DNA of 64,000 bases, from NCBI GenBank assembly GCA_944325545.1, contig CALVAM010000010.1, forward strand, positions 1 through 64,000, in the 5' to 3' direction. Below the pieces are notes generated by a model. It was not told the origin of the DNA and did not search any database. It worked only from the letters and a program-made list of their open reading frames with translations. The stretch comes from Candidatus Gastranaerophilales bacterium. Its GTDB lineage: Bacteria; Cyanobacteriota; Vampirovibrionia; Gastranaerophilales; Gastranaerophilaceae. Made by a program: the position numbers and the translations under genes. This document shows, in pieces, positions 235 to 2,377 of this stretch (position 1 is its first letter; each line of letters opens with the position of its first letter).

Positions 235-1917
235 CTAATCTTTTTTAGAAGTGTTCTTTTCTAATTTCTCTATCCTTTTTACAAGTTCTTGATTTACTTC
301 AATAATTTCTTTATTTTGAGCTTTTAAATCATTAATTTCATATTGTTGATTTTCAATAGTTGATTTCATTTCAGTAACATCTTTTACGAGATTGTTAACT
401 TTTTCTATGATAGAAGTTATTTTTAAATCAAGTTCTTTTACCGCATTTATTACAGCATAGAACATATCTTCCATACGGATTCTTAAATATCCGTCTTCTC
501 CTTTTGTAACCGCATCAGGGAATACTTTTTGTAAATCTTGTGCTATTACACCGACATGTGGAATTTTCTCTTCATCTTTTTTAAATGTATAATGGAAGAA
601 ATCAAGTTTTTTTAATTCTTCTAAACCTGCTATATATTTTTCACCTACATTCTTCAAGCGACGATCTGAATATTCAAACTCAGCATCGCTATCTAATCTA
701 TATAAATCATCGTTATTACCATCGTGCTCACATATGCGTGACAGAACACGTTTACCACCACTTACTCTAAAATTTATGTATACATTTGATCGGTATTTTT
801 TGTCAATTGTTTTATCAACCCCTAAATATGTAGAACCGCCAACTACTAAATTCCCAGGGATATAAACAGTTGCAGCAGAATTACCCAATACTACTTGATT
901 TGAAGCTGTTGTTGTTGCTGCATAACCAATTGCTGTAGAACTAGCGTGTGTTGCAGTTGAATTATGTCCGAATGCAGATGAAGAAGCACCCGATGCAACT
1001 GCAATACGACCAACAGCAGATGAAGAAACACCTGTTGCAGTTGAATAATAACCTAGTGCAGTTGAATAATCATTTGATGCCATTGAAGAATAACCCAATG
1101 CATTTGAATACTTAGCTTTTGCCATTGATCCATAACCAAGAGCTGTTGAATATTGTCCTGTGGCATCAGAATCATAACCCAATGCAGTTGAATAAGATGC
1201 TGATGCAGTTGAATCATAACCCAATGCAGTTGAATATTGCCCTGTCGCCGTCGACCAAGTTCCCAAAGCTGTTGCGTATATTGCCTCTGCATGAGCAGTA
1301 TCACCATAAGCTGTTGCACATTGTGCAGATGCAACTGATCTAACTCCTGTTGCTGTTGAAAATTCTCCAGTTGCACTTGCTTCTCCACCTATTGCTGTTG
1401 AATCTGATATAGTAGCATTTGCTTTTCTTCCGACTGCAGTTGCTTGTACACCATTTATTTCTACTTCATTTCCAATTGCAACAGACTTTGTTGTTGAGGC
1501 TCCTATTGTTTGCCCCATTCCAAACATTACAGATCCGCTTGGAATATTGACATTTGAAATACCTATAGCTGAATCATCAGTACTTGTTCCTGGATTAGCG
1601 GTAATTCCTAAAGAACTTGAATTATTACTATTCCCAAATCTAATATGAGACCAATCTTGAGCTCCTGCGATATATAATTTAGATTGTTTTGCATCTTCTG
1701 GAACTTTGCTAGCCCCAATTAAAACTTGTCCATTCTTTGATAAATAACCGATACTATTTCTATCTCCTGTAAACACCCAAGGGCTGTCTCCAGTTCCTGC
1801 CCCACGTGTCATTTTTTTTGTTATCATTGGGGCGGTCGCTGCTGCTATTATTGATATTATCAATAATACTATCATCATTTCCATTAATGAAAAGCCATAC
1901 TTTATCTTTTTTAACAT
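235..1917 (-). CDS. Type IV prepilin with YadA-like repeat head and S74 chaperone domain
   Basis: This 560-residue protein joins three modules. Residues 1-35 are a class III prepilin signal: MLKKIKYG, then F9 and E13 (E at +5 after the cleavage site), then a hydrophobic helix, as processed by prepilin peptidase. Residues 145-345 hold fifteen exact 14-residue repeats, with A-x-G recurring at 147, 161, 175 and so on to 343, like the left-handed head of trimeric autotransporters such as YadA. Residues 417-500 match the Peptidase_S74 intramolecular chaperone, with the Ser417-Asp-x-x-Leu-Lys422 dyad and GVIAQDLQ. A coiled coil ends the protein. S74 domains fold phage tail spikes as trimers and then cut themselves off before the serine. 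I infer a pilus-displayed trimeric adhesin. The start has a good GAGGAAG ribosome site and an extended -10 promoter upstream. Confidence 0.9.
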   Translation of the reverse strand: MLKKIKYGFSLMEMMIVLLIISIIAAATAPMITKKMTRGAGTGDSPWVFTGDRNSIGYLSKNGQVLIGASKVPEDAKQSKLYIAGAQDWSHIRFGNSNNSSSLGITANPGTSTDDSAIGISNVNIPSGSVMFGMGQTIGASTTKSVAIGNEVEINGVQATAVGRKANATISDSTAIGGEASATGEFSTATGVRSVASAQCATAYGDTAHAEAIYATALGTWSTATGQYSTALGYDSTASASYSTALGYDSDATGQYSTALGYGSMAKAKYSNALGYSSMASNDYSTALGYYSTATGVSSSAVGRIAVASGASSSAFGHNSTATHASSTAIGYAATTTASNQVVLGNSAATVYIPGNLVVGGSTYLGVDKTIDKKYRSNVYINFRVSGGKRVLSRICEHDGNNDDLYRLDSDAEFEYSDRRLKNVGEKYIAGLEELKKLDFFHYTFKKDEEKIPHVGVIAQDLQKVFPDAVTKGEDGYLRIRMEDMFYAVINAVKELDLKITSIIEKVNNLVKDVTEMKSTIENQQYEINDLKAQNKEIIEVNQELVKRIEKLEKNTSKKD

Positions 1918-2050: not shown

Positions 2051-2377
2051 TTATCCCTCCCATTTTTTAGGATCAAATTTTAAATCATTAACTTTCATTT
2101 TTAAGCTCTTCAAATATGGTTCAAATTTTTTCAACAAAATAATTTTATACAAAGATAATTCTTGAGCTACTACAGGATTTTTACAAGCTATAACCATAAC
2201 ATAGCCAGGTAACATTGAATAAGGCTTTGATTTCCCTCTAAATTTTTCAGGTAAAATTTTATCCCAAAAATTATATAAATTAGTTTTTGTAATAGCTTTT
2301 TTTAAATGCGGATTATCCATCATAGAATTTATGACGGTATCAACTCCTTCAAAATCTGTATAGAGAATTTTTTTCAT
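2051..2377 (-). CDS. DUF721/DciA-like protein
   Basis: This 108-residue protein has the DUF721 pattern: an FWDKILPEKF helix, then LPGYVMVIACKNPVVAQEL, then a leucine-rich helix and KVNDLKFDP. The short KH-like domain of this family occurs in DciA, the loader or partner of the replicative helicase DnaB in bacteria that lack DnaC and DnaI. Family assignment is fair; the DciA role is inferred. The start at 2377 lies only 19 bp from the divergent nrnA start at 2397, and no clear Shine-Dalgarno precedes it. A minus-strand TATAGT about 8 nt upstream would give a very short or absent leader. Confidence 0.75.
   Translation of the reverse strand: MKKILYTDFEGVDTVINSMMDNPHLKKAITKTNLYNFWDKILPEKFRGKSKPYSMLPGYVMVIACKNPVVAQELSLYKIILLKKFEPYLKSLKMKVNDLKFDPKKWEG

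Follow-up and report, generated by a model that had tools for sequence, protein, structure and literature searches.

As described by Raynaud et al. (2021, PMC8179133), modular type IV pilins combine a class III prepilin signal with a module of non-pilin origin, and the combination of pilin and S74 domain is placed there among the 15 commonest of their architectures, with a suggested role as a peptidase. A precedent for self-cut S74 fibres on bacteria is given by the MAT proteins of Bdellovibrio (PMC10769870). The gene described here encodes in a single chain a prepilin helix, a YadA-type head, a variable tip and an S74 chaperone, and it comes from the Gastranaerophilales. These are common and poorly studied gut bacteria, and we know of no mode of attachment for them. 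Moreover, none of the papers searched links pilin-S74 proteins with trimeric fibres or with Melainabacteria.

The gene is located in the window (the whole stretch of 64,000 nucleotides that was analysed), which is the start of contig C10 in a genome of 1.82 Mb and 37 contigs. It starts with ATG and both its start and stop codons are inside the contig, whose end is 235 bases away. A sequence-only reading of this DNA had proposed three parts, pilin, YadA head and S74, in one protein, and this architecture is directly observed, as all three domains score above the Pfam cut-offs: N_methyl at residues 6-28 (E 2.5e-6, 27.3 bits for a cut-off of 21.2), YadA_head in nine stretches (E 1.5e-28, above the gathering score) and Peptidase_S74 at residues 417-471 (E 5.9e-14, also above the gathering score). 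The residues that it had named for the prepilin signal (G8, F9 and E13) and for the Ser-Lys dyad of the S74 domain (Ser417 and Lys422, in an SDxxxK motif) are located where it had put them. The class III prepilin signal, which consists of a short basic leader, Gly or Ala at -1, an aromatic or hydrophobic residue at +1, Glu at +5 and a hydrophobic helix, is kept in relatives and is recognised by the NCBIfam model TIGR02532 (GFxxxE prepilin) above its cut-off as well as by Pfam. The fragment C-terminal of the predicted cut has a computed mass of 16.8 kDa.

The repeats of the YadA-type head had been called fifteen exact repeats; the spacing of the 15 is exactly 14 residues from 147 to 343, but their sequence is not exact, with A-x-G in 14 of them and VLG in the last. 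A chance origin of the 14-residue repeats was ruled out by 2000 shuffles, in which the longest run was at most four. No YadA C-terminal membrane anchor is present among the Pfam matches up to E 1 of the 560-residue protein, and its identification as a type V autotransporter was dropped on this account. The parts of the gene are given in Table 1.

Table 1. Parts of the pilin-S74 gene, with positions in the window and residues of the encoded protein
Feature	Position	Strand	Residues	Basis
Whole gene, encoding pilin, YadA-type head, tip (variable) and S74 chaperone	235..1917	-	560 aa + stop	
Prepilin leader MLKKIKYG, predicted cut after G8	1894..1917	-	1-8	sequence, Pfam N_methyl, TIGR02532
Pilin N-terminal helix; Glu5 = E13; invariant P30	1807..1893	-	9-37	AF2, conservation
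Gly/Ser-rich linker and small beta adaptor, conserved W47	1483..1806	-	38-145	alignment, low-confidence AF2 strands
Head of YadA type, a left-handed beta-roll of fifteen 14-residue repeats	883..1482	-	146-345	Pfam, AF2, VIA
Variable fibre tip; C-terminal end of predicted mature fibre	670..882	-	346-416	paired comparison
S74 chaperone/autoprotease core	478..669	-	417-480	Pfam, Foldseek, dN/dS
Ser417 codon	667-669	-	417	
Lys422 codon	652-654	-	422	
Long helix at the C-terminus, probably a trimeric coiled coil	238..477	-	481-560	AF2, weak Pfam

The AF2 model (a monomer, run with an alignment of 63 rows) has a helix at residues 11-37, a confident beta-roll at 146-344 (pLDDT about 98), the S74 core and a second helix at 482-559, in which the Pfam matches to coiled coils are weak and below cut-off. 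Confidence is low in the tip and near the cut site (pLDDT 41-54), and the linker and adaptor have a pLDDT of 52-70. A classical globular domain of pilins was not recognised: the first helix is followed by strands of low confidence, and the adaptor was modelled within the whole chain. The head aligns with that of BpaC (7o23) with a VIA Z of 28.7, and other trimeric adhesin heads match as well. The S74 part matches MyRF ICA (7dc3) with a Foldseek probability of 1.00, and phage chaperones match it too.

The first alignment of relatives had relied on motif filters, and the residue counts were for this reason repeated on sequences chosen by HMM. Among these distinct proteins 140 of 141 retain the catalytic Ser (one has Cys), and the Asp and the Lys are present in 141/141 each; conservation of Ser and Lys in relatives had been set beforehand as a refutation test, which the S74 assignment has withstood. 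Position -1 of the prepilin cut is Gly or Ala in 139/139, the residues after which prepilin peptidases cleave (PMC10191384), while Glu is found at +5 in 140/140 and Pro22 in 141/141. The other refuting condition set beforehand, a pilin helix that is not processed, likewise finds no support, as far as sequence can show, in these conserved residues or in the presence of a prepilin peptidase gene. The conserved W of the adaptor is present in 61 of 63 relatives and the linker varies in length; a YadA head is recognised by Pfam in only 15 of the 63. In a 5'-truncated copy at L035:5725-6483 (reverse strand) the catalytic Ser is replaced by Cys (CDRRLK). Purifying selection is strong on both the S74 domain (median dN/dS 0.054) and the pilin helix (0.026); these values are rough, as many pairs are close to saturation at synonymous sites.

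The part of the fibre that precedes the S74 domain is hypervariable. In 396 pairs of proteins at least 80% identical over the first 40 residues of S74 (selected on S74 alone and compared ungapped upstream), each of the positions -40 to -1 has an identity of 6-12%, about 9%, and the Ser one of 99%; since identity jumps at this residue, the hypervariable tip stops precisely where the cut is predicted. A BLAST comparison finds only 159 of 9591 pairs of tips alike. The paralogues L172 and L173 of one MAG are 100% identical in pilin and adaptor and 99% in S74, with 12% over the 60 C-terminal residues of the fibre, and both in this pair and in L032/L033 the similarity of the DNA resumes exactly where the Ser codon begins. 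The tips of phage S74 proteins also vary more than their S74 domains, with more numerous exceptions. The identity step is direct evidence of a module boundary only; in the reading that we prefer, Ser417 would mark the end of the mature fibre and the piece before it may be an exchangeable binding tip.

A search for pilin and S74 in one protein across the lineage, which had been proposed as a check, gave 157 S74 ORFs with a pilin versus four without it (complete ORFs of Gastranaerophilales, both ends scored by profile HMMs), and 28 further S74 ORFs are cut by contig ends. The architecture had been taken for a chimera; the fusion of domains is real, but it is not a one-off and belongs to a large lineage-wide family. 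The ORFs with pilin comprise 68 + 18 from the family, 62 from named genomes and all 9 S74 ORFs (9/9) of two further families within the order; these groups of genomes overlap partly because some MAGs sit in both collections, and 141 distinct proteins are left when identical ones are removed. The ORFs without pilin are two in the family and two in named genomes, and at least two of the four are damaged: in L058 the pilin is in another frame, in the next ORF upstream, across a frameshift at a run of ten G, and in L053 the 5' part is not readable. S74 is present in 72 of the 146 genomes of the family, with as many as 12 copies in one genome, and over 386 genomes of the phylum it is found mainly in Gastranaerophilales, with scattered other members having one divergent copy each. 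The scan of contigs of named genomes gave 80 loci, nearly all from Gastranaerophilales, Melainabacteria or MAGs of uncertain name. Three genomes (G020, G188 and G338) have 11 or 12 S74 copies each, some with the same or nearly the same scores, which suggests recent amplification.

The frame-broken pilin-S74 gene of L058 (5754-8803, reverse strand) is interrupted at the ten-G run within its adaptor, and its sister gene in L051 is intact, with GGGGGTGGG at the position of the run. Runs of 10-11 G are found in 9 of 142 pilin-S74 genes (L048, L209, L164, L046, L176, L082, L218, L084 and L204), 44-83 bases before the codon of the mature N-terminus, and their density in pilin-S74 genes is about 16 times that of the host loci overall. 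An in-frame open ATG lies upstream of the run in some of the nine and is absent in others. The pattern is as expected if these genes were turned on and off by slipped-strand switching. The window gene has no run of 10-11 G.

The host genome contains assembly machinery genes for a type IV pilin, namely one gene for a prepilin peptidase, one for a secretin and, adjoining the latter, one for a T2SSE/MshEN ATPase. It encodes ten N_methyl proteins, and the helix type of the other nine differs from that of the pilin-S74 protein. No pilus genes lie beside the gene at 235-1917. Genes near it named from sequence as lpxC/lpxD-like and fabZ-like (lipid A) are consistent with a two-membrane cell.

On these grounds the protein is probably a type IV pilin of the modular kind, in which the functional part is an adhesive fibre of three identical chains, anchored or displayed through the pilus machinery after the chaperone has cut itself off and uncovered a variable tip. 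Against this count the low AF2 confidence at the tip and cut site, the unrecognised pilin globular domain, the lack of pilus genes beside the gene and the small share of relatives with a YadA head recognised by Pfam. The N-terminal helix would insert in the inner membrane with the remainder of the chain in the periplasm, and the leader would be trimmed by the prepilin peptidase. The S74 domain and the coiled coil would then gather three chains and template the beta-roll head and the tip, after which the S74 domain would cut itself off before Ser417 and leave a stable trimeric fibre, residues 9-416 of each chain, with its tip exposed. We infer the trimer and the release of the chaperone from the known biology of S74 domains and YadA heads (PMC10769870) and from the sharp boundary at Ser417. 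The type IV pilus machinery would export the trimer, most likely to the tip of the pilus as for CofB, where the fibre could bind other cells or host surfaces; copies of the gene may swap their tips and retain the two ends, pilin and chaperone.

It is rather unlikely, although it is the best placed of the alternatives, that the same trimeric self-cleaved fibre is held in the inner membrane or along the shaft of the pilus rather than at its tip. The pilin part is the first helix only (11-37 in the AF2 model), which is sufficient for insertion in a membrane, and some minor pilins are distributed along the shaft (PMC10191384). However, the filament-assembly residue Glu5 is invariant (140/140) and would not be required by a plain anchor, and a C3 trimer suits the tip better than the shaft, with CofB as the precedent for the tip.

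Clusters of three different pilin-S74 genes (L039-L042, L055, L061, L062, L073, L074, L083, L213-L215 and L229) apparently arose more than once, and in L214 and L215 the trio is followed by a fourth pilin-like gene, of 494 aa and without S74. Such trios are found in several lineages, and within two genus groups the members of a trio tend toward separate orthologous groups, as the products of three adjacent genes might do if they formed one heterotrimer. We regard such a heterotrimer as improbable: fibre lengths within trios are unequal, differing by up to about 200 residues, so that one register would be hard to fit, and the genome of the window has a single pilin-S74 copy. A homotrimer is the arrangement preferred here.

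The pilin-S74 gene adjoins a DciA gene (2051-2377, reverse strand). A fixed genomic position in the genus was considered and dropped, because only 2 of 30 loci of the genus (L325-L354) have a pilin-S74 gene downstream of DciA and the others carry varied genes; its presence at this variable site is thus patchy. A hairpin suspected on inspection of the sequence at about 187-218 is not claimed, as the terminator scan did not call it. Although the head and the S74 part have matches among the PHROGs families of tail fibres, we reject an origin as a phage or prophage tail fibre with an incidental membrane helix as very improbable, since a pilin is found in 0 of 100 IMG/VR phage S74 ORFs, the neighbours are not a phage tail module (DciA and the lipid A genes here; housekeeping genes such as metK, valS and rpoB, named from sequence, beside sampled copies elsewhere) and the S74 tree separates pilin forms from phage forms, if weakly (67/78). 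There is equally little to be said for S74 as a general peptidase presented on pili, which is how PMC8179133 names the module (a predicted peptidase), as known S74 domains cut their own chain (PMC10769870) and the conservation boundary falls exactly at the self-cleavage Ser, as self-cutting would predict.

If the trimeric self-cleaved fibre is correct, a hypervariable tip set between a constant base and a constant chaperone that removes itself would make a receptor-binding repertoire like that of phages. An architecture listed as a peptidase pilin would be re-read as a trimeric fibre, and the fields of modular pilins and of S74 tail spikes would be joined by the pilin-S74 fibres. Tentatively, this may be a new way of displaying trimeric adhesins: a pilus-borne fibre with a self-removing chaperone and an exchangeable tip, kept as a repertoire of as many as 12 copies in one genome, with poly-G slippage close to the gene start as an on/off switch in some species. 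Whether a trimeric fibre rides on a type IV pilus becomes a testable question.

In comparison with the peptidase reading in PMC8179133, the protein is seen here as a trimeric fibre with a self-removed chaperone and a variable tip, and the canonical pilin globular module was not recognised in it; the present analysis adds its almost exclusive use by a single order, its reading as pilin, head and S74, the boundary of the tip and the context of machinery genes. The Bdellovibrio MAT proteins resemble it as non-phage bacterial trimeric fibres with a C-terminal S74 domain (SDxxxK), a conserved N-terminal part and many diverse tips per genome, whereas they have a cleavable signal peptide, a shared N-terminal beta domain of about 130 residues and surface attachment via a partner where the window protein has a prepilin signal and pilin helix (PMC10769870). 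The trimeric autotransporter adhesins YadA and BpaC have the same 14-residue beta-roll head; unlike them, the window protein is without the YadA membrane anchor, and the pilin replaces type V export. CofB and TcpB of type IVb pili are likewise minor pilins, with C-terminal beta domains that are trimeric at the pilus tip, but they are not known to have an S74 chaperone, self-cleavage or a YadA head. The S74 trimerising chaperone and its Ser-Lys dyad are shared with K1F endosialidase, the T5 tail fibre and MyRF. From MyRF we take the window protein to differ in that its anchored part is N-terminal and its released part is the chaperone, and unlike phage S74 tail spikes it is anchored via a pilin helix instead of a phage particle.
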